A stretch of DNA of 64,000 nucleotides, from the NCBI RefSeq assembly GCF_026672425.1, contig NZ_JAPPRC010000003.1, forward strand, positions 602,501-666,500, written 5' to 3'. This DNA comes from Pannonibacter sp. SL95. Lineage in GTDB: Bacteria; Pseudomonadota; Alphaproteobacteria; Rhizobiales; Stappiaceae. The position numbers and the translations under genes are program-made. The notes beneath the pieces were generated by a model. It saw only the letters and a program-made list of their open reading frames with translations, was not told the origin of the DNA and did no database searches. This document shows positions 8,840 through 64,000 of this stretch, piece by piece. Within the stretch, counting starts at the first letter, position 1. Each line of letters opens with the position of its first letter.

Positions 8840-8844
8840 TCCCC

Positions 8845-47808: not shown

Positions 47809-47826
47809 GCTCACACGCGATGATGG

Positions 47827-47849
47827 CATCCGGGGCCACGCCCCGGATG
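47827..47849 (+). terminator. Hairpin between binding-protein and permease genes
   Basis: A perfect 10-base-pair stem (CATCCGGGGC/GCCCCGGATG) with a 3-base loop. Its sequence also resembles the ends of the palindromic repeats found at 52063 and 61821. Confidence 0.55.
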
Positions 47850-47885
47850 TCTCCTTCCAGAAAAACAATTAAGAACGGGCTGGCG

Positions 47886-50117: not shown

Positions 50118-51175
50118 CCACCCACAAGCCCGGTTCCGTGGTCTTTGAACACGTGCGCAAGGACTTCGGCACTTTTACCGCCATTCCGGATCTGTCGCTC
50201 ACCATCGAGCCCGGGACACTGGTCACGCTTCTGGGGCCTTCGGGCTGCGGAAAGACGACCACCCTGCGCATGCTTGCAGGCCTCGAGCATCCAACCTCGG
50301 GCCGGATCCTGATTGGCGGCAAGGATGTGACCATGCTGCCGGCGCATTCCCGCGATGTGTCCATGGTGTTCCAGTCCTACGCGCTGTTCCCGCATATGAG
50401 CGCGCTGGAGAATGTCGCTTATGGCCTGGAGTCCTCAGGCCTGAAGGGCAGGGAAGCCAGGGAAAAGGCCGAGGACGGTCTGGCTCAGGTCGGTCTTGCC
50501 GGCATGGGCCACCGCTTGCCTGCGGAGCTGTCGGGCGGGCAGCAGCAGCGTGTCGCGGTTGCCCGCGCGCTGGTGCTCGAACCTCAAGTCCTGCTGCTGG
50601 ATGAGCCGCTGTCGAACCTTGACGCGCGCTTGCGCCGCAAGGTCCGCACCGAGATCCGCGAGCTGCAACAGCGGCTCGGCTTCACCGCCGTCTACGTCAC
50701 GCACGACCAGGACGAGGCGCTGGCGGTTTCCGACACGATCATCGTTATGAAAGACGGCGTCATCGCTCAGTCCGGCGCACCACGCGACCTCTACGAGACC
50801 CCGGCCTCCACCTTCATCGCCGACTTCATGGGCGAGGCGAATGTGGTTCCCTGCGAGGTGCTGCGGGTGGAGGGGGCTGATGCCACCATCCGCCTCGGCT
50901 CGGTCGAACACCGTGTGCCCGGCGGGCAGGCGCGGCCTGGCAAGGCGCAGCTCGCCATCCGTCCCGGCGCGATCCGGGTTGCTGCCTCCGGTCTGGCTGG
51001 ATTGCCGGGCCAGATCAGGTCCTCGGCCTATCTTGGCGATCATGTCGAGTATGAAGTGGAGACCGAGGTCGGACCGCTCTTTGTCACCGACTACGAAGCA
51101 ACCCTGCCGCTTCCGCCGCAAACCGCCGTCGCAGTCGCGTTACGTGATCGCGGTATTGCTCTCATCTCTGCCTGA
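50114..51175 (+). CDS. afuC: ABC importer ATP-binding protein (AfuC/FbpC type)
   Basis: 353 residues: an ATPase domain with Walker A GPSGCGKTT, signature LSGGQQQR, Walker B VLLLDEPLSNLD and THDQDEA, then a TOBE-like C-terminal domain (about 250-350). It is translationally coupled to the fused permease and energises it. Confidence 0.9.
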   Translation: MTTHKPGSVVFEHVRKDFGTFTAIPDLSLTIEPGTLVTLLGPSGCGKTTTLRMLAGLEHPTSGRILIGGKDVTMLPAHSRDVSMVFQSYALFPHMSALENVAYGLESSGLKGREAREKAEDGLAQVGLAGMGHRLPAELSGGQQQRVAVARALVLEPQVLLLDEPLSNLDARLRRKVRTEIRELQQRLGFTAVYVTHDQDEALAVSDTIIVMKDGVIAQSGAPRDLYETPASTFIADFMGEANVVPCEVLRVEGADATIRLGSVEHRVPGGQARPGKAQLAIRPGAIRVAASGLAGLPGQIRSSAYLGDHVEYEVETEVGPLFVTDYEATLPLPPQTAVAVALRDRGIALISA

Positions 51176-51195
51176 CCTACGGAAACACTCCTCTC

Positions 51196-52002
51196 ATGAC
51201 CCCTTATCAGACTGGCGATCCCATCGCTGATCGCCTGGCGCTGGCCACCGACATCGCTGGTGCAGCCGCTGCCGTTGCACTCGACTATTTCAATCGTCGC
51301 GACACGCTTGTCATCGAGACCAAGCGCGATCTTCAGGACGTTGTTTCCATCGCTGATCGCAACGTGGAACAGCTTATTCGCGACCGCGTCGCGGCGGACC
51401 TACCCAAGGACGGGTTCCTGGGTGAGGAGTTTGGTCTGACCGAAGGCAGTTCGGGCTTTACGTGGATCGTTGATCCGATTGACGGCACGGCCCCCTTCGT
51501 CAACGGCATGCCAAGCTGGTGCGTGTCGATTGCCGCCATTTGCGATGGCGAGCCTGTCATCGGCGTCATTGCCGTGCCGTGTACGGGTGAAGTCTACGCA
51601 GCTGCAAAGGGCATGGGCGCGACGCTGGACGGGCGCACGCTGAAACTTGATCCGGCGCGAACCGTGCAGAACGGCCTGACCGGCATCGGCAGCAACAGCT
51701 ATGTCACGCCGGAGCGGGTTGGCGAGATCTTCACCGGTCTGTTGCGCATGGGAGGCAACCCGATCCGCAACGGCTCTGGTGCCCTGATGCTGGCCTATGT
51801 CGCAGCCGGAAAGCTCGTTGGCTACTACGAGCCTTACATGCACGCCTGGGACTGCATGGCGGGCTACTGTCTCATTCAGGAGGCAGGTGGATCAGTTCTT
51901 CCGTTCCCGGCCGTGGGAGAGTCCCTGCGCAAGGGGGCTCCTGTTCTCGCGGCTGGCCCCGGCGCGCGCGATGATCTTTGGAAACTGGCCGGGATCTCCT
52001 GA
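51196..52002 (+). CDS. Inositol-monophosphatase-family phosphatase
   Basis: 268 residues with the metal and substrate motifs of the lithium-sensitive phosphatase family: GEE near 75-77, WIVDPIDGTAPF near 90-101, and the C-terminal HAWDCMAGYCLIQEAGG near 216-232. Family members hydrolyse inositol phosphate, histidinol phosphate, fructose bisphosphate or PAP. It lies 20 bases after the importer ATPase in the same direction, so it probably dephosphorylates the imported compound, which supports a sugar-phosphate rather than ferric-iron role for the transporter. Confidence 0.88.
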   Translation: MTPYQTGDPIADRLALATDIAGAAAAVALDYFNRRDTLVIETKRDLQDVVSIADRNVEQLIRDRVAADLPKDGFLGEEFGLTEGSSGFTWIVDPIDGTAPFVNGMPSWCVSIAAICDGEPVIGVIAVPCTGEVYAAAKGMGATLDGRTLKLDPARTVQNGLTGIGSNSYVTPERVGEIFTGLLRMGGNPIRNGSGALMLAYVAAGKLVGYYEPYMHAWDCMAGYCLIQEAGGSVLPFPAVGESLRKGAPVLAAGPGARDDLWKLAGIS

Positions 52003-52215: not shown

Positions 52216-54258
52216 TTACCGCAGCGCGGCTTCGATGTTGCCGCCGTCGACGGTCATCACATGCGCCGTGGTGCGTTCCGACCGGGCAAGCGCGAGGAAG
52301 GCCTCGCCGACATGCACCGCCTCGACCTCCTTGCGCAGCAGGTTGCCGCCCATGTAGGTCGCCTCGTCGATGTTGCGGGCGGAGGAGCGGGCCGCGATCA
52401 TCTCCGGGGTCAGCAGGCCCGAGCGGATGCGGTCGGCGTTGATGCCGTTGACGCGGATGCCTTCGCCGCCGAGTTCCAGCGCGAGCTGGCGCAGGAGGAA
52501 GAAGGTCGCTGCCTTGGGCAGGCCGTAGGCGGCAAAGCCCTTGCCCGGATTGACCGCCTGCTTGGAGACGTTGAACAGGATCTGCCCCCCGCGTCCCTGG
52601 CGGCGGAAGACGGCTACGGCTGCCTGCGCAAAGGCCTGATGGGCAAAGAAGTTCAGCTCGAAGCTCGCCCGCAGGGTTTCATCGGACAGCGTTGCCACGT
52701 CCCCCGTCATGGCCGCGCCGGCGTTGGAGATGAGAATGTCGAGGCCGCCGAAGCGGGCGACACAGGCCTCCACCGCGCTGGCTGCCGCGCCCTTTGCCGT
52801 GATGTCGCAGGCATGGCCGGCATGGTCGCGGCCGAGGCTGGCAAGGGCTGTGTCGAGGGCGGCCTGATCCCGGTCAACCAGGAACAGCGTCGCCCCGGCT
52901 GCCGCAAAGACCTTGGCGGTGGCCAGACCGATGGCGCCGGCACCACCCGTCACCAGCACGACCTGTCCCTGCAGCGCGGGCTTTGCGCCCTTGCCGAGCT
53001 TGGCCTGTTCCAGCGACCAGTACTCGAGATCGAACAGATCCGTTTCCTTGATCGGATAGAACCCGCCGCGGGCCTCGCCATCCGCCATGACGCGCAGCGT
53101 CTGCTCGCCGATGTCGGCGGCAATGCGCGCCGCTGTTGCGTTCGCGCCCATGCCGACAAGGCCTATCCCTTCGATCCAGGCAAGGTTCGGCACCGGCGAC
53201 AGCATGGTCTTGGCCCCGCCGAAGCGCGGCGCATTGCGCTCGAAATAGGCGATGTAGTCGGCAACGAACCGGTCCACCACCGCGCTGACGGCGTCCGGCC
53301 CCCGCGCGACGTCGGCGCGGGTGAGATGCAGCGGATGGCCCTTGGTGCGGATCACGTGATCCGGGGTGGCAACGCCGCGCGTGGCCAGTAACGCCAGGTC
53401 CTTGCGCTCCAGGAAGTCCAGCACCGCGTCGCCGTCGCGCAGGTCGAAGACCGACATCGCCGCGCTTTCGGGCAGGTGACGGGCAATGGCCCCGCGCAGC
53501 GCGGCAAGCGTCTCGGCGACGCTGGTGGTCTGCGGCCGGGCCACGGCCACCAGCTTGCCCGGGCGGCGGCTGGCCAGCCACTCTTCCACCAGGTTGGTGT
53601 GCTCGATGATCTTGTCATAGGACGCCTTGGCCGTCGGCCCCCAGGCGAAATGGCCGTGGTTGACGAGCAGAAGACCCTCGATCCCCGGATGGGCCTCATA
53701 GGTCTCGGCCGCAAGCTTGGCGAGCGCGAAGCCTGGCATGACATAGGGCACCAGCGCCAGCTTGCTGCCGAAGATCTCGCGGGTCGCTTCCGCCACTTCC
53801 GGCAGATTGGCGAGCGTCAGGAAGGCGGTGGCGTGGGTGTGGTCGACATAGGTGTGCGGGATGTAGGCGTGCAGCAGCGTTTCCACGGACGGATTGGGTG
53901 CGGTCGAATCCATCAGGTTGGAGCGCTGGATGTTGACCATGTCTTCGTCGGAAAGGGCCGCCAGCTCGCGCAGCCGCATCAGCGGGGCCATGCGCACGGC
54001 CGGCAGGCCTGCGGCCTTGATCGTCTCCAGATCCCAGCCCGAGCCCTTGATGTGGATGACATCCAGCTCCTCGCCGAAAATGTCGCGCGCCTTCAGCTTG
54101 ACCGAGGTGTTGCCACCGCCATGCATGACCAGATCCGGGTCCATGCCGATGAGACGGGAGGTGTAAACGCGCAGCGCCAGTTCACGCGCAGCCGGGTCCT
54201 GACCGGCCGCATCCTGAAAGGCCACCGCTTCGCTGTCTTGCCACCGGTTTGCGATCAT
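52216..54258 (-). CDS. Bifunctional class II aldolase/short-chain dehydrogenase
   Basis: 680 residues. The N-terminal half (about 1-400) is a zinc-dependent class II aldolase (MHGGGNTSVK, DHTHATAF and VNHGHFAW supplying metal histidines). The C-terminal part (about 415-680) is a short-chain dehydrogenase with VTGGAGAIGLA, SNAG, NVS and the catalytic AAYGLPK. The same fusion splits rhamnulose-1-phosphate to DHAP and lactaldehyde and acts on the aldehyde in rhamnose pathways. There is no rhamnose isomerase or kinase here; with mtnK and mtnA nearby, a 5-modified ribulose-1-phosphate is the more likely substrate. ATG 54258 follows GGGAGGATAGG. Confidence 0.88.
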   Translation of the reverse strand: MIANRWQDSEAVAFQDAAGQDPAARELALRVYTSRLIGMDPDLVMHGGGNTSVKLKARDIFGEELDVIHIKGSGWDLETIKAAGLPAVRMAPLMRLRELAALSDEDMVNIQRSNLMDSTAPNPSVETLLHAYIPHTYVDHTHATAFLTLANLPEVAEATREIFGSKLALVPYVMPGFALAKLAAETYEAHPGIEGLLLVNHGHFAWGPTAKASYDKIIEHTNLVEEWLASRRPGKLVAVARPQTTSVAETLAALRGAIARHLPESAAMSVFDLRDGDAVLDFLERKDLALLATRGVATPDHVIRTKGHPLHLTRADVARGPDAVSAVVDRFVADYIAYFERNAPRFGGAKTMLSPVPNLAWIEGIGLVGMGANATAARIAADIGEQTLRVMADGEARGGFYPIKETDLFDLEYWSLEQAKLGKGAKPALQGQVVLVTGGAGAIGLATAKVFAAAGATLFLVDRDQAALDTALASLGRDHAGHACDITAKGAAASAVEACVARFGGLDILISNAGAAMTGDVATLSDETLRASFELNFFAHQAFAQAAVAVFRRQGRGGQILFNVSKQAVNPGKGFAAYGLPKAATFFLLRQLALELGGEGIRVNGINADRIRSGLLTPEMIAARSSARNIDEATYMGGNLLRKEVEAVHVGEAFLALARSERTTAHVMTVDGGNIEAALR

Positions 54259-54376
54259 TCCTATCCTCCCGTACATGATCCCCGCGCAAGCATCTGCCTC
54301 TTGGCACGCGGCGCTTGGATCAGCTTGATCTTCGGCAGCTTTTATACAAAAGTCAGAACATGCTGTCATAAATAAA

Positions 54377-55354
54377 ATGGTGGGGCGAATGGCGGGTGTG
54401 AAGCGGCGGACGACGGGACAGATCAGCGGCGAGAACGTGGTGATCGAGGTGGCCTGGATGTATTACCACGAGGGCCTGAACCAGAAGGAGATCGCCGACC
54501 GGCTGGGCATCTCGCGCGCCACCGTCGTCAACTACCTGCAGGACGCGCGCGAGCGCGGCATCATCCGCATCTCGCTCAATTCCGACGCCTTCACGCGGCA
54601 CCGGCTGGCAGTCGATCTTTGCGGCCGCTTTGGCCTGACCGCGGCCTATGTCATCCCGGACGAGGGGGCGGATGAGGAGACAACCTTTCAACGCGTCGTG
54701 CGCGGGGCGGCAGAGTGGCTGCCGAAGCTGCTGGAAAAGGGCGACCGGCTCGGCGTTGCCTGGGGCCGCACCATCTATGAACTGGCGCGAGTGAGTGATG
54801 ATACCCGCATCGAGGATCTCACGGTGCTGCAGCTCGTCGGCTCCATGGCCACACCCTATGGCTTCACGGCGGAAGCCTGCTCGACGCGGCTGGCGCAGCG
54901 CCTCGGCGCGCTCTGCCTCAACCTGCATGCGCCGGCCGTCCTCACCAATGGCGACATCGCGGCGCAGCTGCGGGCCGAGCCGATCATCCGCGACCAGCTG
55001 GCGCGCCTGCTCACCTGCAACAAGTTTCTCTATTCCGTTGGCACCTGCGAGCCCTCCAGCCACATCGTCGGGTCCGGCGTCGCAACACTGACCGAGCTGG
55101 ACTGGTACATCGCGCAAGGGGCAACGGCGGTCCTGTGCGGCCGCTTCATCGACGCGGACGGCAAGCCCATTCCGGGGCCGCTCGACGCCCGCGTCATCGG
55201 CATTCCGGTCAACCGGCTCGCGGGACTGGACATGGGCATCCTGGTCACCCCCGGCCTCGACAAGGTCGCCGCCACCCGCGCCGCCATCCGCGGCGGCTAC
55301 GCCACCCATATCGTCACCAGCGTCGGCGTCGCCGAGGCGTTGCTTGCGGAGTAG
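54377..55354 (+). CDS. SorC/DeoR-type sugar-responsive transcriptional regulator
   Basis: 325 residues. The N-terminal helix-turn-helix (about 25-65) reads YYHEGLNQKEIADRLGISRATVVNYL. A SorC-type sugar-phosphate-binding domain follows (about 75-325), with GDRLGVAWGRTIYELA, GLDKVAATRAAIRGGYATHIVT and a C-terminal sugar-isomerase-like fold. It is divergent from the aldolase-dehydrogenase and near mtnKA, so it very likely controls this catabolic cluster. ATG 54389 is an alternative start. Confidence 0.9.
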   Translation: MVGRMAGVKRRTTGQISGENVVIEVAWMYYHEGLNQKEIADRLGISRATVVNYLQDARERGIIRISLNSDAFTRHRLAVDLCGRFGLTAAYVIPDEGADEETTFQRVVRGAAEWLPKLLEKGDRLGVAWGRTIYELARVSDDTRIEDLTVLQLVGSMATPYGFTAEACSTRLAQRLGALCLNLHAPAVLTNGDIAAQLRAEPIIRDQLARLLTCNKFLYSVGTCEPSSHIVGSGVATLTELDWYIAQGATAVLCGRFIDADGKPIPGPLDARVIGIPVNRLAGLDMGILVTPGLDKVAATRAAIRGGYATHIVTSVGVAEALLAE

Positions 55355-55438
55355 GGTGATCTGCAGCCTTGCCAGAGTCGTTGTAGCCTGAGTTGTTCGA
55401 TCGTGCGAACACGGGATTGGTAGAGACGACCCTCGGGC

Positions 55439-55474
55439 GTCACCCCGGACGCAGCGAAGCGGAGATCCGGGGCC
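55439..55474. repeat. Solo arm of the intergenic repeat family
   Basis: A 36-base segment with the core ACGCAGCGAAGCGGAGATCC, shared with 61821-61856. A degenerate inverse arm may lie near 55505-55530. It sits in the 265-base gap between the SorC gene and mtnA, in which I see no gene. Confidence 0.7.
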
Positions 55475-55577
55475 AACTCGTTCGCAGAGCGGTGATTTGT
55501 TGCCGCTCCCGGCTCAGCGAACTTCGTCCGACTGTTCTTGGGCAGTGCGAACCAACCAGGGCTCTGCAAGCGAGTAG

Positions 55578-55599
55578 GCCCCGGCCGTCTGGCCGGGGC
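55578..55599 (+). terminator. Rho-independent terminator after the SorC regulator
   Basis: A perfect 9-base-pair stem (GCCCCGGCC/GGCCGGGGC) with loop GTCT, followed by TTTCCTTTT. Confidence 0.8.
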
Positions 55600-55619
55600 T
55601 TTCCTTTTCGCAAACTGCG

Positions 55620-56717
55620 TCAGCGCCGGCCCGCCCTGTCCGGGAACATCGCCGCGAGGCCTTCCGTTGTTGCCGGGCAGATGCCGCGTTCGGTGATGAG
55701 GCCGGTGACGAGTTCGGCCGGCGTCACGTCGAAGGCCGGGTTGCGGGCCGGGGTGCCGGTCGGCGAGATCTGCACCGACAGGATGCGTCCGTCCTCGCTG
55801 CGGCCCTGCACGTGGGTCACTTCGACGCCGCTGCGCTCCTCGATCGGGATCTCCTTCACGCCGTCGACGACGGTCCAGTCGATGGTCGGAGAGGGCAGGG
55901 CGACGTAGAAGGGCACGCCATTGGCCTTGGCCGCCAGCGCCTTCAGATAGGTGCCGATCTTGTTGCAGACGTCGCCGCGCGCCGTGGTGCGGTCGGTGCC
56001 GACGATGACGAGATCGACCTCGCCATGCTGCATCAAATGGCCGCCGGCGTTGTCGACGATGAGGTCATGCGATACGCCGTGGCTGTTCAGTTCCCAGCTG
56101 GTCAGCTGGGCGCCCTGGTTGCGCGGCCGCGTCTCGTCAACAAAAACATGGATGTCGATGCCGTCCTCGACTGCGTGATAGATCGGCGAGGTGGCGGTGC
56201 CCCAGTCCACGGTGGCCGGCCAGCCGGCGTTGCAATGGGTGAGCACGTTGACGCGCTTGCCACCTTTCCTGCGCGAGATGTCGCGGATGATCTCGAGCCC
56301 GTTGAGGCCGATCTGCCGGTTCATCTCCACATCCTCGTCGCTGATCGCGGCCGCGCGGGCAAAGGCGGCCGCAGCACGGTCCGCCGGGCTCAGCGGCTTC
56401 AGAACCTTCATCATCTCGTCCAGCGCCCAGCGCAGGTTGATGGCGGTGGGGCGGGTCTCGTTGAGAATGTCATAGGTCTCGCCAAGCGAAGCGTCGGACG
56501 GATCCGCCGCCATCTGCACCGCAACGCCATAGGCCGCCGTTGCGCCGATCAGCGGCGCGCCGCGCACCCACATGTCGCGGATGGCAACGGCGAACTCCGC
56601 CCGGTTGGTCAGCGGCACGATCCTGAGGTCATGCGGCAGCCAGCGCTGGTCGATGATGCGGACCTCGCCCGACGGCTCGCGCCAGATCGAGCGATAATGG
56701 GTGCCGTCGATTTTCAT
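55620..56717 (-). CDS. mtnA: S-methyl-5-thioribose-1-phosphate isomerase (MtnA family)
   Basis: 365 residues. It converts an aldose-1-phosphate (MTR-1-P in the reference enzyme) to the ketose. Visible are VRGAPLIG (51-58), catalytic-cysteine motif THC162NAG and catalytic aspartate D242 in [19 protein letters not shown], where typical MtnA has GADR and ANGD. These substitutions leave room for a 5-deoxyribose or other pentose-1-phosphate isomerase of the same family. The ATG overlaps the mtnK stop by ATGA, so kinase and isomerase are coupled. Confidence 0.9.
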
Positions 56718-57979
56718 AGGTAATCCTCTCCGTTGATCTTGCGCGCCAGATCCAGCACCTCGGCCATGGAGGTGATCTCTGCCCGGCCGACGGCCAGCAC
56801 GCGGCCGAGCATCAGGCCCCTGGCCTCGCAGGCGGCGCGCAGCGCTTCGTCCTCGATGCGGTCATATTCGGCGATGTGGGCGAGCCCCAGCGTGCGGCGG
56901 TGCATCTCGATGCCGCAGAAGCCAAGCGTGTCGCGCCAGATGGCGGCCAGCCGCTCCAGACGTGCCTTCTCGGCGGCAAGCCCGTGGCCCTGATCCTCGA
57001 ACAGGCTTGCCTGATAGAGGATGCCGCTGCGCTCCGTCCGCCACAGCCGGGTGAACTCGGTGCTGAAATGGGCCCAGATCGCGTCAACGACGGACAGGAT
57101 CCATTCCTTGTACTGCGCGCGGGCCCCGGGGGTCTCGGCGTGGCCTTCCTGGGCGAAATAGGCCATCAGGAAGTTGGCGATCAGCATGCCGATGTCGAAG
57201 CCCATCGGGCCATAGGTGGCAAACTCCGGATCGATCACCCGGGTCTCGCTGTCCGAAACCATCACCGAGCCGGTGTGCAGGTCACCATGCAGCAGTGTCT
57301 CGGCGTTGTTGGCAAAGGCCATCTTGAGATGCTGGGCGGTGATTTTCAGATCCGTGTCCGCCCGCAGCATGGCCACCACCGGATCCAGCGCCGGGGTGTG
57401 GCGGTTGAGCGGGGCGGCGAAATAGGGATCGGAGAAGACGAGGTTCTCGGTGATGTCGCAGAGCTCGACATTGCCGGCAAACAGCGCCAGATCCGCCTTG
57501 CGCCGGGCGGTCGGCATCGACAGGTCCGACCCACGGAACAGGGTGCGGGCGCAGAATTCGCCGAGCACCTTGCCGAGATCTGGATGCGTCCGCGCCTCCA
57601 TCAGGCTCTTGCGCAGGATGACGTGCGGGGTCAGGAACTCCATAACGATCAGCGCCTGCGCCTCATCGAAATGATAGATCTCCGGCACGCTGCCGGGATC
57701 GCGTTCCGCCTGACGGATCAGGGCGTTGTACTCGAAGAAGGCGCGCTTCAGCGGCAGCGGCCAGCTTTCCCCGACGAGGCGCACGTAAGGCAGCGCCTGC
57801 TTGACGATCAGGCTGCCGTCGGGCCCGTCGATGATGAAGACGAGGTTCAGGTTGCCGTCGCCGACTTCCCGCACGGACCACCGTGCCGGATCGCCCGTGC
57901 GCTCGCGGATGGCGGGAATGCTGCCCAGCCGGTCGGCGAGGGTCGCTGGCTCCAGGGCCTTGTAGGTGCTGTCCGTCAC
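56714..57979 (-). CDS. mtnK: 5-methylthioribose kinase
   Basis: 421 residues, of the choline-kinase/aminoglycoside-phosphotransferase-like fold. Motifs are GDGNLN (41-45 region), catalytic HGDLHTGS (231-238) and [16 protein letters not shown] (249-264), all characteristic of MtnK. It phosphorylates 5-methylthioribose at C1 with ATP. GTG 57979 has GGGAGGAG upstream; the longer upstream frame crosses the promoter region. It is divergent from the ABC importer, which probably brings in its substrate. Confidence 0.92.
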
Positions 57980-58073
57980 AGGTCTCCTCCCTTGTGCGAC
58001 TTGCGTGATATGGCACTGCGGACTGGCCGCGTGAGTGTTTGATGCGATGCAGGAAATCGGCTTCCAATGCAAT

Positions 58074-58096
58074 TGTCAAATCATATTGACATATGA
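58074..58096. promoter_or_regulatory. Overlapping palindromes in the mtnK/importer promoter region
   Basis: TGTCAA-N6-TTGACA (58074-58091) overlaps TCATAT-TGAC-ATATGA (58081-58096). The right arm TTGACA is a consensus -35 for the importer operon. This is a likely operator, perhaps for the SorC regulator. Confidence 0.55.
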
Positions 58097-58139
58097 AAGC
58101 TTCCGGACGTAGCCTGTTCCCAGTGGAGGAGAATACACT

Positions 58140-59651
58140 GTGAGTGATCAGGCAATCCGCCTGGCTGGCCTGTGCAAAGCATTCGGCCGGAACCAGGTGC
58201 TGCGCGGGGTCGATCTGGACCTGTCCGGTGGACAGGTAACCGTTCTGATGGGAGCGAACGGGGCCGGAAAATCGACGCTCGTGAAGATCTTGTGCGGGGT
58301 GCATGCGGCCGACAGCGGCAGCGTGACCCTGGCTGGCCAGCCCTTCAAGCCCGAGACGCCATCCGAGGCGCTACGGGCCGGTATCGTCACGGTCCACCAG
58401 AACATCAATGATGGCGTCGTGCCGGATCTGGATGTGGCCTCCAACCTGTTGCTGGACGGTCTGGCCAGCGGTGGCGGCGTTTTCCTCAATGGCCGCAAGA
58501 TGCGGGCCAGGGCGCGCGAGATCGCTGCAGCCGTCGGTCTCACCATTGACGTCAGCCGTCCGGTCGCTGGCCTGTCACTGGCGGATCGGCAACTGGTCTC
58601 CATCGCCCGCGCCATGGCGCATCAGCCGCGCCTTCTGATCCTGGACGAGCCGACCTCTTCTCTGTCCGCCGCCGAGGCCTCGCGGCTGTTCGACCTCATC
58701 GACAGCCTGCGCGCCCGGGGTGTCGCCATTCTCTACATCTCGCACCGCATGTCCGATATTCGCCGTCTCGCCGACCGGATCGTGTCGATGCGCGATGGCC
58801 GCATTTCCGGTGTCTTTGAAGGTCCGGAACTCGACTATTCCGGTGCCGTGCGGGCGATGCTCGGTCACGAGATCACCGAGGTTGACATCACCATTCCTCA
58901 ACCCGGTCTGCCCGTGCTCGAGGTGCGCGATCTGGTGCTGCGGCCAGGGGCGAGACCGTTCTCCCTGACCTGCCATGCCAATGAGGTTGTGGCGATCACG
59001 GGTCTGGTCGGCGCCGGCAAGTCGGAGTTTGCCTCCGTGCTGTTCGGCACCGGTGCAGCCGTCTCCGGCGAAGTCCGGCTGGATGGCAAGCCGCATCGCC
59101 CGGCAAGTCCTCGCGCGGCCATCGATGCCGGCGTGTTCCTGTCGCCCAAGGACCGGCCGGTCAACGCGGTCGTTGCCGACTTCGACATCCTGCGCAATCT
59201 GACGCTGCCGTTCCTGAAGCGCCACAGCACGGCCCAGTTCGTGCGCGGCGCGTCCGAGCTTGCCACGACCCGGCGGATGATTTCCGAGATGGGCGTCGTC
59301 TGCCAATCGCCCACCGACGGCATCGGCACCCTGTCGGGTGGCAACCAGCAGAAGGTGATGGTTGCCCGCTGGATGGCCGAGGCCTCGCGGCTCCTGTTGC
59401 TCGATGAGCCGTTCCAGGGCGTCGACATCCAGGCAAGGCGCGACATCGGCCACAAGATCCGCGAAACCGCCGCCACCCGCGCCACCATCGTTTTCGTCGC
59501 CGAGCTGGACGAAGCGCTGGAGATTGCCGACCGGGTGCTGGTGATGAGCGAACATTCCATCGTTGGCGAGCACCGCAACGAAAACATCGACGTCTCCGCG
59601 ATCATGGCCCAGGTGGTCGATGCATCGCTTCCGAGCGCAGCAGGACAGTAA
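58140..59651 (+). CDS. Ribose-type sugar ABC transporter, double ATP-binding protein
   Basis: 503 residues with two fused ATPase domains, as in RbsA. The first has GANGAGKST and LILDEPTSSLS, with the signature reduced to LSLADRQ. The second has GLVGAGKSE, LSGGNQQK and LLLLDEPFQGVD. GTG 58140 is supported by GGAGGAG 8 bases upstream. It is the first gene of the operon ATPase-permease-binding protein, divergent from mtnK. Confidence 0.93.
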   Translation: MSDQAIRLAGLCKAFGRNQVLRGVDLDLSGGQVTVLMGANGAGKSTLVKILCGVHAADSGSVTLAGQPFKPETPSEALRAGIVTVHQNINDGVVPDLDVASNLLLDGLASGGGVFLNGRKMRARAREIAAAVGLTIDVSRPVAGLSLADRQLVSIARAMAHQPRLLILDEPTSSLSAAEASRLFDLIDSLRARGVAILYISHRMSDIRRLADRIVSMRDGRISGVFEGPELDYSGAVRAMLGHEITEVDITIPQPGLPVLEVRDLVLRPGARPFSLTCHANEVVAITGLVGAGKSEFASVLFGTGAAVSGEVRLDGKPHRPASPRAAIDAGVFLSPKDRPVNAVVADFDILRNLTLPFLKRHSTAQFVRGASELATTRRMISEMGVVCQSPTDGIGTLSGGNQQKVMVARWMAEASRLLLLDEPFQGVDIQARRDIGHKIRETAATRATIVFVAELDEALEIADRVLVMSEHSIVGEHRNENIDVSAIMAQVVDASLPSAAGQ

Positions 59652-59652
59652 G

Positions 59653-60672
59653 ATGCAGAGTGGTTCCCCGAACGCGATCGATCTGGCCATCAAATATGGC
59701 TTCCTGGTGCTGATGGCCGGGCTGATCGTCTTCTTTGGCGTCATGGCGGAAGGCTTCCTGTCGCCGCACAGCGCCGTCTTCATCCTGCAGTCGGTGGCGA
59801 TCACGGGCATCCTGGCGCTGGGCGTCACCGCCACGCTGGTCGTCGGCGGCTTCGACCTGTCGATCGGCGCGGTCGCGACCTCCGCATTGATGCTGTCGTC
59901 CTACGCCATGGTCGTCTGGCAGCTGGATGCCGTGTCCGCCGTGGCGCTCTGTCTCGGCATGGGCCTGCTCGTCGGCCTCGTGAACGGCCTTCTCATCGTC
60001 AAGATGAAGGTGCCGGACCTCCTGGCGACGCTCGGCATGATGTTCCTGCTCGTCGGCCTGCAGCGCATTCCGACCGAGGGGCGTTCCATCTCCACCGGGA
60101 TGACCCTGCCGGACGGCACCACGGCCAGCGGCATCTTCTCGGAAGGCTTCCTGATGCTCGGCCGGCACCGGCTGGATTTCATCCTGCCCAATCTCGTGCC
60201 GCTTTCTGTGGTGTTCCTCGTGCTCATCGCCATCGGCGTCTGGGTGTTCCTGGAACTGACCCGTCACGGCCGGCTGATGTATGCCATCGGCTCCAACGCC
60301 AAGGCGGCCGGTCTCGCCGGGGCCAATGTCAACGGCTACAAGATCGCCGCCTACATGATCTCCGGCACGCTCGCCTCCTTCGGCGGCGTCCTGCTGGCGG
60401 CCCGTCTCGGGCGTGGTGACGTGGCCTCGGGCAACAACCTGCTGCTCGATTCTGTCGCGGCCGCACTCATCGGCTTTGCCGTGCTCGGTGCCTCCAAGCC
60501 GAATGCCTTCGGCACCGCCATCGGCGCGCTTTTCGTCGGCATCCTGCTGCAGGGTCTGACGATGATGAACGCGCCCTACTACACCCAGGACTTCATCAAG
60601 GGCGGCGTGCTCGTCATCGCCCTTGTCTTCACTTTCGCGCTGTCCGGCCGAGGGGGACGGGCGCGCGGCTGA
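59653..60672 (+). CDS. Ribose-type sugar ABC transporter permease
   Basis: 339 residues, an RbsC-like permease with eight to ten membrane segments and the family motif GGFDLSIGAVATSALMLSS (near 70-90) and GSNAKAAGLAGANVNGYK (near 215-232). ATG 59653 lies one base after the ATPase stop; a 30-residue upstream extension overlaps that gene and is rejected. Confidence 0.92.
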   Translation: MQSGSPNAIDLAIKYGFLVLMAGLIVFFGVMAEGFLSPHSAVFILQSVAITGILALGVTATLVVGGFDLSIGAVATSALMLSSYAMVVWQLDAVSAVALCLGMGLLVGLVNGLLIVKMKVPDLLATLGMMFLLVGLQRIPTEGRSISTGMTLPDGTTASGIFSEGFLMLGRHRLDFILPNLVPLSVVFLVLIAIGVWVFLELTRHGRLMYAIGSNAKAAGLAGANVNGYKIAAYMISGTLASFGGVLLAARLGRGDVASGNNLLLDSVAAALIGFAVLGASKPNAFGTAIGALFVGILLQGLTMMNAPYYTQDFIKGGVLVIALVFTFALSGRGGRARG

Positions 60673-60705
60673 CGTGGACTATATAAAACAGCAACGGGAG
60701 GAATC

Positions 60706-61743
60706 ATGATTACCAGACGTCTCTTCACGGCCCTTGCCGCCACGGTGGCGATGGTCCCGGGTCTCGCCTTTGCCGCCGAGATGCCGAAGCCCTTCGACAA
60801 GCCGGCCGAGGTCAAGATCGCGCTGGTGCGCTATCTGTCCACCGGCGACTTCTTCCAGGCCTATCTGTCCGGCGTCGAGAAGCAGGCTGCCGCGCTTGGC
60901 GTTGACCTGCGCGTCTTGGACAGCCGCCAGGATGCCGCGCTGCAGGCCGACATGGTCGATCAGGCGATTGCCCTCGGAGTCGACGGCATCATCATCCAGC
61001 ACGGCCTGACGGAATCCATGCAGGCCGCTGCACAGCGCGCAGTCGATGCCGGCATCAAGGTCGTCGCCTTTGACGTGAACGTCGAGAACCCGAAGATCCC
61101 GCAGATCGAGCAGTCCGACCGTGACCTTGCCCGTCTTGCTCTGGAGCAGGCCGTGGCCGACAACGGCACGACCTGGACCGCAGGCTACGTCTATGTCCCG
61201 GGCATCGCCCCGCTCGACCGCCGCGACGAGACCTGGAAGGCCGTCAAGGCGGCAAACCCGGGCATCAAGCAGGTCGCCGAATTCGGCACGCTCGACAACC
61301 CGATTGCCAACTCGGTCGCCAATCAGGCCCGTTCGGTGCTGTCGGCCAACCCGGGCATCAACGTTGTCTTCGCCCCTTACGACGAATTCGCCAAGGGCGT
61401 GAAGATCGCCGTCGATGAAGCCGGCATGTCCGGTCAGGTGTCGATCTACTCGGCGGACGTGTCCACCTCGGACATCGCCGCCATGCGCGAGGCGGGCTCT
61501 GCCTGGAAGGCCACTGCCGCCACCAACCCGGCCGTCGTGGGGGAGGTCTCCGTCCGTGCGCTCGCACAGCTTCTCGCCGGTGAAGATCCGGGCCGCAGCG
61601 TCATCGTGCCGCCGACCCTGATCACCCAGAAGATGCTGAACGAGCTCGACATCAAGAACATGGAAGAACTGGGCGCAAAGCTGCCCGCCTTCGCCCATGC
61701 CGACGTCGCCGTTCCGGCCTGGATGCCCCTGCCGAAGCGCTGA
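60706..61743 (+). CDS. Ribose-type sugar ABC transporter, periplasmic binding protein
   Basis: 345 residues: a signal peptide (RLFTALAATVAMVPGLAFA), then an RbsB-like type-I binding-protein fold with ALGVDGIIIQHGLTESMQAAAQRAVDAGIKVVAFD. Strong GGGAGGA precedes ATG 60706. Its ligand is probably a pentose-like compound; the divergent mtnK makes 5-methylthioribose or 5-deoxyribose the leading candidates. That is inference from position only. Confidence 0.9.
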   Translation: MITRRLFTALAATVAMVPGLAFAAEMPKPFDKPAEVKIALVRYLSTGDFFQAYLSGVEKQAAALGVDLRVLDSRQDAALQADMVDQAIALGVDGIIIQHGLTESMQAAAQRAVDAGIKVVAFDVNVENPKIPQIEQSDRDLARLALEQAVADNGTTWTAGYVYVPGIAPLDRRDETWKAVKAANPGIKQVAEFGTLDNPIANSVANQARSVLSANPGINVVFAPYDEFAKGVKIAVDEAGMSGQVSIYSADVSTSDIAAMREAGSAWKATAATNPAVVGEVSVRALAQLLAGEDPGRSVIVPPTLITQKMLNELDIKNMEELGAKLPAFAHADVAVPAWMPLPKR

Positions 61744-61768
61744 GTTTTGCGCGGGTAGACCAAAGGAA

Positions 61769-61796
61769 AAGCCGGAGCGGGTGACCGCTCCGGCTT
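61769..61796 (+). terminator. Hairpin after the binding-protein gene
   Basis: A perfect 12-base-pair stem (AAGCCGGAGCGG/CCGCTCCGGCTT) with loop GTGA. A near copy appears at 61980-62007 and a degenerate copy near 62251-62282. Confidence 0.75.
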
Positions 61797-61820
61797 GAGG
61801 TTGATGACAAACCCTCTATC

Positions 61821-61948
61821 GTCATCCCAAACGCAGCGAAGCGGAGATCCGGGACCGGAGAGCCTAGGTCTCTTCTGGGTTAGCTGATTGAAATATAGAG
61901 GCCTCGACTCTCCGGTCCCGGCTCTGCGCTTCGCTTGGCCGGGATGAC
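61821..61948. repeat. Palindromic intergenic repeat (imperfect inverted arms)
   Basis: The arms 61821-61862 and 61908-61948 are near-complementary (GTCATCCC ... ACCGGAGAG against CTCTCCGGT ... GGGATGAC). The left arm shares ACGCAGCGAAGCGGAGATCC with 55439-55474. No gene is visible in 61744-62307. Confidence 0.8.
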
Positions 61949-61979
61949 GTCGGAGAGGTCGAGGTTTGTCAGCAGTCTG

Positions 61980-62010
61980 AAGCCGGAGCGGGCAACTGCT
62001 CCGGCTTTTT
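61980..62010 (+). terminator. Second copy of the terminator hairpin
   Basis: A perfect 10-base-pair stem (AAGCCGGAGC/GCTCCGGCTT) with an 8-base loop, running into TTTTT. This copy has the T tract that the copy at 61769 lacks. Confidence 0.75.
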
Positions 62011-62025
62011 GCTGCCCTCGCACCG

Positions 62026-62216
62026 CCGTCATCCCGGCCCAGCTGAGCGTTAGCGAAGCGCCGAGCCGGGATCCAGAAATCAGCCGCGCGCAGCGCGACA
62101 AAGCGCCCCTGCACCCGGGTATTGTTCAATTGCTTTTTGGAGCTCGCTCACGCTCGCACAGATGCGCTGGATTCCGGATCGGCGGTTCGCTTCGCTCACC
62201 TTGTCCGGAATGACGG
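62026..62216. repeat. Second palindromic repeat, imperfect long inverted arms
   Basis: The arms 62026-62076 and 62167-62216 are partly complementary (CCGTCATCCCGG ... CGGGATCCAG against CTGGATTCCGG ... CCGGAATGACGG). It belongs to the same repeat family as 61821-61948, with greater divergence. Confidence 0.7.
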
Positions 62217-62307
62217 CGCGAGCCGGGACCAGCGACCTCCCCAAATACACGAAAGCCGGAGCGGTCACCCACCCCGGCTTCTGAGTATTGCAGCAGGCTG
62301 CTTGGCT

Positions 62308-63435
62308 TCAACCGTGTTCCCGCTCGACCTCGTCCAGCGCCTGGCGCATGGCGGTGATGCCGTTGCCGATGTCGTCGCCAAGGCGCAGGAGGCTGCCGCC
62401 GAGGAGATAGACCACGTCGCTTCCGTACATCCTGGCCATTTCACCGGCCCGTTCCACGCTCATGCCGCCGCCGGGGCTCGGCAGCATCGCCTGGCCGGGG
62501 CCGGATGGGGAGCGGCAGGCATCGGCGATCGACTGGCATTCGGCCACGGTGAAGCCGAAGCGGCCGCCGACATTCGGGAACACGGAAATATCCGAGCCCG
62601 CAATGCGCTGCAGCGTGCCGAACATCATGGCGTGGGTGAAGCCGGTGTCGGGCGAGAGGACATACGGTCCAAGGAAACTCGGATGCGTCATGATCGGCAT
62701 AGCCAGCCGCTCGTCGGCGGCGATCCGGGCGGCGATGCCGAAGCCGAGCAGGCCCGGCATGATCAGGATGCCATCGGCGCCAGCGTCCCGGGCAAAGCGG
62801 ATGTTGGCGTCAAGCTCCTGCGGCTCGCCGGCCAGCGAGGGGAAATAGAGCGCCTTGCGGCCTGTCTCCTCCTGAGCCCTGGCAAGGGCGGCGGCGGTCT
62901 TCTCGACGCGCTCGCGGAAGGGGGCCATCGGCTGGTCCATGATCCCGTGGTCTTCCTTGACGATATCGGCCCCGCCCTTGGCGCAGAGATAGGCGATGCG
63001 GGCCAGCGCGTCGGCCCCGAGCCCCTGCGGCTTCAGCACGGGTGCAATCAGACCGCCCTTCGGCCGTCCCGCCAGCCGGCGGATGCCCTCGATGCCGAAG
63101 CGCGGCCCGGGATGGCGGGCCTGCATCGTTGCGCCGAGGGCAATGTCGATCACCTTCAGCCCGCGCTGGATGGAGGAATTGCCGAAGATCACGTTGAAGA
63201 ACTGGGCGATCTCGAAACCGGCGCTGTCCGGGCTGTAGCTGATGACGGCCCGGAACGTGACCTCACTTTCGCGGCCGATCTCCTCGATCTGGCCGAGGAT
63301 CTCGTCGGCGATATAGCCTTCCGGCACCACATCGCGGGGAACTTCCACGGTCTGCTCAAGCGCGATGGCCTCGGCGCGCTGGCGCGCCTCGGCCTCGCTT
63401 GCGGCGAAGATGCGGTAGGTAACGGCAAACCGCAT
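62308..63435 (-). CDS. RuBisCO-like protein (form IV)
   Basis: 375 residues with the RuBisCO large-subunit fold: an N-terminal domain ending with FNVIFGNSSI (80-89), then the barrel. K135 in KPQG corresponds to the general-base lysine. K160-E-D-H163 replaces the K-D-D-E of the carbamylated lysine motif. H251 is in THPSF. Loop 6 (NVGGRFG, 288-294) lacks the CO2-positioning lysine. PGGG near 321 and LLGGSLL near 345 are phosphate-binding strands. It therefore cannot be a carboxylase. Relatives isomerise MTRu-1-P or decarboxylate 3-oxo-isoapionate-4-phosphate. ATG 63435 overlaps the transketolase stop (TGATG), so the two are co-transcribed. Confidence 0.9.
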   Translation of the reverse strand: MRFAVTYRIFAASEAEARQRAEAIALEQTVEVPRDVVPEGYIADEILGQIEEIGRESEVTFRAVISYSPDSAGFEIAQFFNVIFGNSSIQRGLKVIDIALGATMQARHPGPRFGIEGIRRLAGRPKGGLIAPVLKPQGLGADALARIAYLCAKGGADIVKEDHGIMDQPMAPFRERVEKTAAALARAQEETGRKALYFPSLAGEPQELDANIRFARDAGADGILIMPGLLGFGIAARIAADERLAMPIMTHPSFLGPYVLSPDTGFTHAMMFGTLQRIAGSDISVFPNVGGRFGFTVAECQSIADACRSPSGPGQAMLPSPGGGMSVERAGEMARMYGSDVVYLLGGSLLRLGDDIGNGITAMRQALDEVEREHG

Positions 63436-64000
63436 CAGAGCGCCTCGGCCTTCACGGCGGAATGCACGGCGTCGACGCGCACGCTGTCGAGGGCGTCCTC
63501 GTCGATGCCTGTCTGCTGGCCGGTCAGATCCTCGATGGCCTTGACCAGGGCCATGGCGTCGAGACCGTAGTAGCGCATCAGATAGGGCTTGGAGCCGCCA
63601 TGGGCGTAGGTGTCCTTGAGACCCAGCCGGATCAGGCGGCGGCCCATCCCCGCCTCTGCCATGGCTTCCGCCGTCATCGACCCGATGCCGCCGGCAATCA
63701 GGTGGTTTTCCAGCGTGATGACGCCAAACCGCACGCTGGCGGCGTGATCGAGGATCGCCTTGGCGTCGAACGGTTTCAGCGTGTTGAGATGCAGGTGGCG
63801 GACGGAGACGCCGACCTTGGCGAGGGCCCCACCGGCGCGCATCGCCTCTTCCGTGGTGATGCCGGCGGTGATCACCAGCACGTCGCTGCCTTCCGACAGG
63901 ACACGCAGCTCGCCGACCTTCATCGGGTCCTTGAACAGGCGTGGCACCGAGCCGCGCAGCACGCGGGCATAGACCGGACCGTCAATGCTGTCGGCGGCCT
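63435..64000 (-). CDS. Transketolase C-terminal subunit (partial, continues past window edge)
   Basis: About 188 residues are visible, open at the right edge; the reading frame continues upstream of the first internal GTG with DSIDGPVYARVLRGSVPRLF, which is coding. This is the C-terminal half of a split transketolase: the end of the pyrimidine-binding domain and the transketolase C domain (DVLVITAGITTEEAM, VRHLHLNTLKPFD, VITLENHLIAGGIGSMTAE). The N-terminal subunit should lie just outside the window on the same strand. It precedes the RuBisCO-like gene in one operon. Confidence 0.88.
   Translation of the reverse strand, partial: AADSIDGPVYARVLRGSVPRLFKDPMKVGELRVLSEGSDVLVITAGITTEEAMRAGGALAKVGVSVRHLHLNTLKPFDAKAILDHAASVRFGVITLENHLIAGGIGSMTAEAMAEAGMGRRLIRLGLKDTYAHGGSKPYLMRYYGLDAMALVKAIEDLTGQQTGIDEDALDSVRVDAVHSAVKAEAL

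Follow-up and report, generated by a model that had tools for sequence, protein, structure and literature searches.

A probable 5-methylthioribose catabolic locus pairing a RuBisCO-like protein with a two-subunit transketolase in Pannonibacter sp. SL95

Introduction

The locus described here probably serves the catabolism or salvage of 5-methylthioribose (MTR), and probably of related 5-deoxypentoses, by a route in which a RuBisCO-like protein (RLP) would be followed by a two-subunit transketolase (TkA–TkB, TkAB) in the place of a cupin. Although related to RuBisCO, RLPs do not carboxylate, and many of them have no known partners. In the literature searched, we found no published pathway that joins MTR import, an RLP and a two-part transketolase. 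The window is the whole stretch of DNA analysed, 64,000 nucleotides. From computed gene identities, synteny, the cupin/TkAB exclusivity in the loci examined and the RLP residues, we infer the substrate, the reactions and the fate of the products.

Gene composition of the locus

The earlier note had named an aldolase–dehydrogenase fusion, a SorC regulator, MtnK, MtnA, an importer and an RLP, and all of them are present with profile or Pfam matches. The fusion of a class II aldolase and a short-chain dehydrogenase (FUS; 52216..54369, minus strand, 717 aa as called) contains the Pfam domains Aldolase_II and adh_short, and scores 861.4 bits against the cut-off of 639 for NF006192 in the profile search. 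The start codons in the raw list of open reading frames are probably too early for FUS and MtnK. The alignment of FUS with its homologues mostly begins only at residues 35–41, and its true start is likely near residue 38, at about 54258; that of MtnK, judged by eye, is probably near residue 32, at about 57979. FUS is adjoined by a SorC/DeoR-type sugar-binding regulator (54377..55354, plus strand; Pfam Sugar-bind, 165 bits). The methylthioribose-1-phosphate isomerase MtnA (55620..56717, minus strand; TIGR00512, 414.1 bits, cut-off 279) is the sole IF-2B-family match in the whole-genome search. The gene overlaps that of the methylthioribose kinase MtnK (56714..58072, minus strand; TIGR01767, 485.7 bits, cut-off 275), for which the closest solved chains are 2pyw and the methylthioribose kinase 2olc.

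The ABC sugar importer consists of three genes on the plus strand. The ribose/arabinose-type ATPase (58140..59651; Pfam ABC_tran in two stretches) is AraG/RbsA-like, yet falls under the AraG/RbsA cut-offs. The permease (59563..60672; Pfam BPD_transp_2) probably starts at about 59650. The closest solved chain to the periplasmic sugar-binding protein (60706..61743; Peripla_BP_4) is 4ry8_A (E=1.1e-66 over 318 residues), which we take to be an MTR-binding protein.

The RLP (62308..63435, minus strand; PF00016) is a predicted methylthioribulose-1-phosphate (MTRu-1-P) 1,3-isomerase. The C-terminal transketolase subunit TkB (63435..64484, minus strand; Pfam Transket_pyr and Transketolase_C) runs across the window end at 64000, and the subunit TkA (64438–65427; Pfam Transketolase_N) lies just past it. 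Thus, the split transketolase proposed from a window that holds only part of TkB is real, because both genes were found in full when the sequence beyond the window was included. TkA, TkB and RLP are three overlapping or abutting genes, convergent with the importer genes in the window across a gap of 564 bp.

Proposed route

The ABC importer would bring in MTR, and MtnK would convert it to MTR-1-phosphate, at which point endogenous MTA would join via MtnP. MtnP and MetY are both present in the genome, MtnP being encoded outside the cluster. MtnA would then produce MTRu-1-P, and the RLP is predicted to shift the carbonyl to the opposite end, giving 1-methylthio-D-xylulose-5-phosphate. TkA–TkB would cut the C2–C3 bond to yield glyceraldehyde-3-phosphate and a thiamine-bound methylthio-C2 unit. 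In a parallel exit, FUS may split MTRu-1-P (or 5-deoxyribulose-1-P) in an aldol reaction that yields DHAP plus an aldehyde; the latter would be reduced or oxidised by the dehydrogenase domain of FUS. The earlier note had proposed that an MTR-type sugar is imported, handled by MtnK and MtnA, and passed through an aldolase branch, an RLP branch or both together with a transketolase step; in the form given here, this scheme has the support of conserved synteny.

Conservation of the gene set

Genes were counted by tblastn (E 1e-15) in 84 RLP loci; partial matches, contig-edge truncations and the duplicate pair L011/L016 on one contig are included, six of the loci are shorter than 8 kb and others stop inside the cluster. 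In these 84 loci (the best 80 of 215 confirmed matches plus L011–L014), TkB was found beside RLP in 81, TkA in 76, MtnA in 67, MtnK in 61, MtnK and MtnA together in 61, the binding protein in 61, SorC in 60 and FUS in 51, and both MtnK and MtnA are missing in 17. About ten of the 17 are on short or cut contigs; L019, L020, L021, L076, L087 and L089 have long flanks and no MtnK/MtnA in the stretch. L013 and L014, from another genus, carry a co-directional row ABC–MtnK–MtnA–TkA–TkB–RLP with an RLP only 45–46% identical; FUS and SorC were not found in the 17–20 kb around them. Judged from these arrangements, the predicted conserved core is ABC–MtnK–MtnA–TkAB–RLP. According to the earlier note, the scheme would fall if the RLP/transketolase and mtnKA blocks never co-occurred in related genomes; the blocks do co-occur, and the gene set is conserved over the 84 loci.

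The locus could also be read as two unrelated neighbours, a DHAP shunt (importer–MtnK–MtnA–FUS) and an independent RLP–transketolase operon acting on another sugar. The convergent orientation with its gap and the loci without MtnK/MtnA, of which six or more have long flanks, favour this arrangement, but it is very unlikely because L013 and L014 hold everything in a single row. The joint occurrence of MtnK and MtnA in 61 of the 84 loci (same sample), among which the gene order varies, also argues against it, as does the entry through PNP and MtnA in two loci: in L073, PNP and a deaminase-type amidohydrolase adjoin MtnA in the place of MtnK, and L077 has the same order. Another sugar may enter at L089, where the upstream genes code for a PfkB-type kinase and an AraD-type aldolase instead of MtnK/MtnA.

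In L051, L056 and L060, the RLP occurs without TkAB in the stretch examined. In L087, the gene after RLP is S/N-oxide-reductase-like (TIGR00509, 866 bits, under the cut-off of 1018), and a protein of similar size is encoded at this position in L089. The TkA subfamily was detected in two of 240 class-sampled genomes, with 640 and 401 bits and a next-best score of 169. The RLP subfamily occurs in the same two genomes, at 649 and 455 bits. RLPs at 327–370 bits are encoded in another ten genomes, which have no TkA subfamily; these scores belong to cupin-linked RLPs, and the rest score at most 131.

RuBisCO-like protein and its partner

The RLP exceeds the RuBisCO_large cut-off in the profile search, and its closest solved structure, by sequence and by fold, is the R. 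palustris RLP 3qfw. As MtnW it falls under the cut-offs (187.4 against 409 for NF007095; 141.1 against 513.6 for TIGR03332), and an MtnW-type enolase identity was rejected on this ground together with the absence of MtnB/MtnD matches in the genome. D-apiose catabolism with the RLP OiaX and a two-subunit apulose-phosphate transketolase was reportedly described by Carter in 2018. To our knowledge, apiose routes do not use MtnK or MtnA. A pathway of that type, with an OiaX-like RLP decarboxylase and an apulose-phosphate transketolase, would agree with the employment of an RLP in D-apiose catabolism (available text of PMC6302742), but with 78 bits the RLP here stays far below the OiaX cut-off of 700, and its partners differ, MtnK and MtnA being the conserved ones. 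On score and partners, this pathway was rejected as a most improbable reading.

The RLP tree was built from 82 of 86 available TkAB-type rows (L035, L064, L085 and L088 being removed by a length or stop filter), cupin-type rows and one RuBisCO outgroup. The TkAB-labelled rows include L051, L056 and L060, which have no TkAB nearby, and the identical RLPs of L040 and L041; in the cupin-labelled row L160, the contig ends before a cupin could appear. Two clades, TkAB-type and cupin-linked, are separated with a support of 97/85 and in 100% of 200 bootstrap trees. By its grouping with cupin-linked RLPs, in a tree without named DeepYkr, MtnW or OiaX references, the RLP is putatively of the DeepYkr type. 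Fifty-seven positions that are invariant in 10/10 cupin-type RLPs show a conservation of 97% or more across 82 TkAB-type RLPs; K135, K160, D162, H163, H251 and R292 are among them. In both clades, K135, K160, D162, H251 and R292 align with RuBisCO K175, K201, D203, H294 and K334, and His163 is located at the position of E204 (presumably spinach numbering).

In the MTA-isoprenoid shunt, a cupin turns 1-methylthioxylulose-5-phosphate into DXP and methanethiol. This shunt (R. rubrum and R. palustris; MtnP–MtnA–DeepYkr RLP–cupin) has the same predicted steps from MTR-1-P through MTRu-1-P to the RLP, and the RLP catalytic positions are common to both, the closest solved RLP itself being from R. palustris. 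Here, by contrast, TkA–TkB stand for the cupin, which was not found in the locus, and the importer and MtnK are added. According to the accessible part of PMC5893883, the product of the R. palustris DeepYkr RLP1 is 1-methylthioxylulose-5-P. A cupin abuts RLP in nine of the ten closest RLP loci without the TkAB subfamily, and in the tenth the contig stops 33 bp after RLP. These cupins resemble that of the Rhodospirillum MTA-isoprenoid shunt. No cupin was found by tblastn (1e-5) in 85 TkAB-type RLP loci, 82 of which hold TkAB, and the cupin methylsulfurylase gave no match in the window, L003 and L004 at the same threshold. TkAB thus appears to occupy the place of the cupin at the RLP loci examined. 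Given this exclusivity and the catalytic residues common to both clades, the most likely substrate of TkAB is the product of the RLP, 1-methylthioxylulose-5-phosphate, from which glyceraldehyde-3-phosphate and a methylthio-C2 unit are predicted to arise.

The main substrate might instead be 5-deoxyribose (from 5'-deoxyadenosine), with the RLP giving DXP directly and TkAB splitting DXP into glyceraldehyde-3-phosphate and a hydroxyethyl unit. The closest solved relative of the binding protein, 4ry8, presumably MTR-binding, speaks against this, and the S/N-oxide-reductase-like gene of L087, with the similar-sized protein of L089, hints at sulfur. The resemblance of TkB to DXS (TIGR00204, 154 bits, cut-off 466) favours it, as do the E. 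coli DHAP-shunt MtnK and MtnA, which handle MTR and 5-deoxyribose alike (excerpted text of PMC10986504), but the characterised cupin-linked relatives use a methylthio compound (accessible part of PMC5893883). We regard 5-deoxyribose as an unlikely main substrate. The 5-deoxyribose salvage by DrdK–DrdI–DrdA in Bacillus thuringiensis has a like kinase, isomerase and aldolase logic and, unlike the locus here, requires neither RLP nor transketolase (available portion of PMC6079011).

Two-subunit transketolase

Among solved structures, TkA and TkB are both closest to the split-chain transketolase of Carboxydothermus (6yak/6yaj), TkA also by fold. His116, His298, D193-G194-E195 and N223 of TkA are kept in 72/72 rows, and Glu69 of TkB is invariant in 18/18. 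We take these to be the ThDP-binding motif and the catalytic residues; the thiamine diphosphate-binding motif and the catalytic Glu/His of the transketolase family thus appear to be present. TkA differs from the Carboxydothermus enzyme in two respects: a conserved His is replaced by Tyr49 (71/72 rows), and the GHP loop by a SVEMIGAEHSPG loop that is nearly invariant. Met148-Ile149 is found in 72/72 rows, and Ile149 aligns with the GHP-loop His in comparisons with 6yak and human TK. The two substrate-binding His of transketolases, presumably E. coli H26 and H100, are not kept in the TkA alignment of 72 rows. Tyr for His also occurs in 6 of 14 other homologues (usable frames from 14 of 30 loci tried). 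The argument that these donor-pocket changes are specific to a methylthio donor was rejected, because sister split transketolases carry the same changes. The TkA structure model has a mean pLDDT of 78.1, with residues 145–156 below 50, so it was not used for any statement on the pocket.

The methylthio-C2 unit most likely meets one of two fates. In the first, β-elimination of methanethiol would leave acetyl-thiamine, to be released as acetate or acetyl phosphate. We tentatively suggest on this basis that TkAB could be a methanethiol-eliminating, phosphoketolase-like transketolase that converts 1-methylthioxylulose-5-phosphate into glyceraldehyde-3-P, methanethiol and acetate or acetyl phosphate. 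In the second, the unit would be released or transferred. TkAB might do no more than pass it on to a sugar-phosphate acceptor; the resulting 1-methylthio ketose would either be excreted or undergo processing elsewhere, and no methanethiol would form at TkAB. Such a transfer is ordinary transketolase chemistry and agrees with the kept TkA and TkB residues, but no gene for processing a 1-methylthio ketose was recognised among the recurring neighbours, and we hold it to be possible though rather doubtful. No acetate-handling gene group recurring in at least five loci was recognised among the neighbours judged by eye. An aldehyde dehydrogenase-like neighbour group, apparently of the betaine type, recurs in five loci.

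FUS and methionine salvage

Homologues of FUS, about 50% identical, adjoin MtnA/MtnP in 13 of 19 loci, and they accompany MtnP/MtnA also in genomes without a TkAB-type RLP. From this neighbourhood, FUS appears to be a second, separable exit of the DHAP-shunt kind. The gene types of that shunt are all here: MtnK/MtnP, MtnA and a class II aldolase (predicted MTRu-1-P aldolase). The DHAP shunt of R. rubrum, R. palustris and E. coli ATCC 25922 (MtnK or MtnP, MtnA, Ald2) has MtnK, MtnA, a class II aldolase and some regulator in common with the locus; the E. coli regulator MtnR is annotated as DeoR family (available text of PMC12632272). In the locus, however, aldolase and short-chain dehydrogenase form a single protein, the RLP and transketolase would provide a second exit, and an ABC importer lies within the cluster. 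FUS is a candidate for the DHAP-shunt alcohol dehydrogenase, which was termed putative and unknown in the mBio paper. A recurring second importer, a PhnSTU2-like ABC beside FUS, was rejected, being close only in L073 and distant (25–40%) in L013.

MtnB and MtnD/ARD gave no match in the genome (each search passes its cut-off in only 2 of 14 control genomes), and the pair that defines canonical (universal) methionine salvage is therefore not found in this genome. Methanethiol oxidase also gave no match in the genome.

Biological implications

MTR is a sulfur-bearing waste sugar that is apparently imported and broken down here. If a transketolase takes the RLP product, this would be a new exit in the metabolism of S-adenosylmethionine by-products. 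If TkAB eliminates methanethiol, MTR would be converted completely to C3, C2 and CH3SH, with no need for oxygen or a cupin and no loss of methylthioethanol, in a new methionine-salvage and methanethiol-producing route. A transketolase acting on the RLP product would also give these Alphaproteobacteria a methylthioribose route that recovers both carbon and sulfur, and the route may be a source of methanethiol.

Gene content and layout of the cluster

The window covers bases 602501–666500 of its contig, in a genome of 5.04 Mb. The cluster begins at position 52216 with the minus-strand gene of FUS, an aldolase–SDR fusion, and a SorC regulator gene follows on the plus strand. The overlapping genes of methylthioribose-1-phosphate isomerase (MtnA) and methylthioribose kinase (MtnK) are located on the minus strand, and an ABC sugar importer is encoded after them on the plus strand. 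The last genes of the window, again on the minus strand, encode a RuBisCO-like protein (RLP) and then TkB, a subunit of a split transketolase. The earlier note had named FUS, MtnK and MtnA by eye, and these identities were confirmed by profile scores above the curated cut-offs; the SorC, importer, RLP and TkB domains were likewise matched. The split transketolase that it had placed in the cluster is real, but the window holds the TkB part only: TkB ends at 64484, past the window end, and the other subunit, TkA, follows outside the window (64438–65427, minus strand). The genes of TkA, TkB and RLP share a strand and overlap or abut one another.

A PhnSTU2-like ABC importer (46777–52002; binding protein, 765-aa fused permease and ATPase, all below the curated cut-offs) directly adjoins FUS, accompanied by an inositol-monophosphatase-family gene. 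An ABC importer 55–61% identical to it adjoins TkA in locus L073, and a distant counterpart (25–40%) is present in L013, from another genus. Beyond TkA, genes resembling iron/cobalamin uptake were recognized by eye. A form I RuBisCO gene stands in a Calvin-cycle-like row roughly 20 kb beyond the end of the window. Between it and the cluster, at window coordinates 74892–80711 (outside the window), lie a BmpA-like ABC importer, possibly a nucleoside import system, and an amidohydrolase-like gene, both recognized by eye.

Cupin and transketolase behind the RLP

Among 240 class-sampled genomes, the TkA profile scored 640 and 401 bits in two and at most 169 bits elsewhere. These two genomes also gave the highest RLP profile scores, 649 and 455 bits; ten further genomes scored 327–370 bits, and none of the remainder exceeded 131 bits. 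In nine of the ten genomes with 327–370-bit RLPs, a cupin of 142–160 aa abuts the RLP on the same strand, and the tenth contig (L160) stops 33 bp after the RLP. The cupin of L163 matches Pfam Cupin_2. In the clade of the window's RLP (TkAB-type; 84 loci and L158), the split transketolase (TkAB) is present in 82 of the 85 loci, and the cupin had no match in these 85 loci, the flanks of which vary in length. Computation establishes which genes are present and how the cupin and TkAB are distributed.

In the literature, methylthioribulose-1-phosphate (MTRu-1-P) is converted by R. palustris RLP1 and by the RLP of R. rubrum to 1-methylthioxylulose-5-phosphate and 1-methylthioribulose-5-phosphate at 3:1, and a cupin converts the former to 1-deoxyxylulose-5-phosphate and methanethiol (PMC5893883; PMC6302742). 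By gene order and size, the RLP-linked cupin found here may be likened to this enzyme of the MTA-isoprenoid shunt. Where that shunt has a cupin behind the RLP, this cluster appears to have the split transketolase instead.

A single branch separates the TkAB-type from the cupin-type RLPs (support 97/85; 100% of 200 bootstrap trees). The tree holds 82 of the 86 available TkAB-type rows, 10 cupin-type rows and one RuBisCO outgroup, whose long branch makes the root unsure. Both groups have 57 near-invariant positions in common, including those aligned with RuBisCO Lys175, Lys201, Asp203, His294 and Lys334 (Arg here), in spinach numbering. In the fold search, 3qfw, which is an RLP from R. palustris, ranked first for the window's RLP.

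Among solved structures, TkA and TkB are both closest to the split-chain transketolase from Carboxydothermus, TkA also by fold. His116, His298 and the cofactor motif of TkA are kept in 72 of 72 aligned rows. Tyr49 is found in 71 of them, where the solved transketolases compared have His, and the loop S145–P155 is invariant or nearly so, with Met148-Ile149 taking the position of the GHP-loop His. We take the substituted His positions to be donor-sugar contacts, one of them to the C1 hydroxyl. A methylthio or deoxy donor has no C1 hydroxyl. These changes in the predicted pocket fit a methylthio/deoxy-donor model. They do not prove it, because Tyr also occurs in 6 of 14 other transketolase homologues (14 of 30 tried loci were usable, the genome's own canonical transketolases not among them), and both His are missing from several split transketolases of the sister group. 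Among the six sister loci L168–L173, several have Tyr at the place of the conserved His. Four of the six adjoin a gene resembling short-chain dehydrogenases, and five have TRAP-transporter-like genes nearby, as judged by eye.

Conservation and distribution

At E 1e-30, RLP matches were detected in 6 of 87 family genomes, the window's own counted. Two belong to same-genus genomes with the same block, and two (45–46% identity) to another genus; the sixth has 30% identity and a different gene context. The other two same-genus genomes gave no RLP match at this threshold. In the two loci of the other genus (L013, L014) all genes lie on a single strand and run ATPase-permease-binding protein-MtnK-MtnA-TkA-TkB-RLP, with neither FUS nor SorC found in the 17–20 kb fetched.

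Scanning 84,980 species genomes yielded 215 confirmed RLP relatives, and the best 80 of these, together with L011–L014, make up the 84-locus set. The closest named record among the best 80 of 215 is Pannonibacter carbonis (RLP 97% identical). The genes present are RLP (84 loci), TkB (81), TkA (76), MtnA (67), MtnK (61), binding protein (61), SorC (60) and FUS (51). MtnK and MtnA occur together in 61 loci, and neither occurs in 17, of which L019, L020, L021, L076, L087 and L089 have long flanks and most others short or cut ones. No TkAB was found near the RLP in L051, L056 and L060; amidohydrolase-like and purine-nucleoside-phosphorylase-like genes precede the RLP in L051 and L056. Judged from record titles and the labels in the tree, the carriers are mostly Rhodobacteraceae/Paracoccaceae, and also Hoeflea, Maritalea, Ahrensiaceae and one Anaerolineales (Chloroflexota) bin. 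The TkB-RLP pair of that bin (L095) groups with alphaproteobacterial L158 in the tree, which may reflect transfer or mis-binning. The cluster is conserved and functionally coherent.

Clues to the substrate

MtnK and MtnA as enzymes point to a 5-blocked pentose. The nearest solved chain to the periplasmic binding protein is 4ry8_A (E 1.1e-66), which we take to be a Thermotoga 5-methylthioribose (MTR)-binding protein in complex with MTR. We infer an MTR-type substrate and the chemistry of the route. A FucU/RbsD-type mutarotase, the family being named for L051, is present in 19 of the 84 loci, consistent with a free reducing sugar; none was found within the window.

In L073, purine nucleoside phosphorylase (PNP) and deaminase-type amidohydrolase genes lie beside MtnA, replacing MtnK, and L077 has the same order. 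In L158, TkA-TkB-RLP is paired with a NupC-type transporter and PNP. These partner genes are entry points for modified nucleosides. L077 also encodes a 779-aa AceE/transketolase-like protein, below the curated cut-offs, directly after TkA-TkB-RLP (8308–10647).

Directly after the RLP, L087 (11123–13429) encodes an S/N-oxide reductase-like molybdoprotein, of the BisC family by similarity (TIGR00509, 866 bits, short of the 1018-bit cut-off). Nearby is a gene resembling homocysteine methyltransferases (102 bits against a cut-off of 215). A 767-aa protein is encoded at the matching place in L089 (11125–13428). These neighbours hint at sulfur, and the reductase-like protein may serve to reduce a substrate sulfoxide. 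In L089, PfkB-type kinase and AraD-type aldolase genes (454–2117) also lie upstream; SorC and an ABC importer of a different kind come after them, and TkB-RLP is on the downstream side. MtnK and MtnA were not seen in the fetched stretch. This arrangement counts against a single substrate, and possibly another sugar feeds the same RLP-TkAB pair there.

FUS and methionine salvage

FUS homologues at E 1e-150 were detected in 39 of the 240 class genomes including the window's, the others at 41–53% identity. MtnA or MtnP is located within 1.5 kb in 13 of 19 other loci with fetched flanks and not within that distance in six; in wider stretches of eight of the 19, MtnA and/or MtnP was found in seven. 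A TkAB-type RLP is absent from all FUS-bearing class genomes except the window's. Given these neighbourhoods, the best reading of FUS is a putative aldolase of MTRu-1-P (5-deoxyribulose-1-P) that carries a fused dehydrogenase. The mBio paper calls the DHAP shunt's alcohol dehydrogenase putative and unknown, and therefore the SDR domain of FUS is a candidate for it. E. coli with the DHAP shunt grows on methylthioadenosine (MTA) and 5-deoxyribose, and sulfur accumulates as 2-methylthioethanol (PMC10986504).

The nearest precedent found for the transketolase step is a transketolase for which 5-deoxyribose serves as the acceptor, yielding 7-deoxysedoheptulose; that paper also mentions that a promiscuous transketolase reaction has been suggested for 5-deoxyadenosine salvage in M. 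jannaschii (PMC8102628). In the accessible parts of open-licence full texts, no description was found of an RLP-transketolase route for methylthioribose, methylthioadenosine or 5-deoxyribose.

The genome has one MtnA match, MtnP (524.6 bits; cut-off 437) and O-acetylhomoserine sulfhydrylase (605.5; cut-off 495.1), and no match to MtnD, MtnB or methanethiol oxidase. O-Acetylhomoserine sulfhydrylase is able to reclaim methanethiol. As MtnA is single and MtnP is present, the strain's own MTA would also go through the MtnA of the cluster. The exits found for MTA are RLP-TkAB and FUS, the cupin search having covered the locus stretches. The cluster appears to be a new variant of MTA/MTR salvage, with a split transketolase in the cupin's place behind the RLP.
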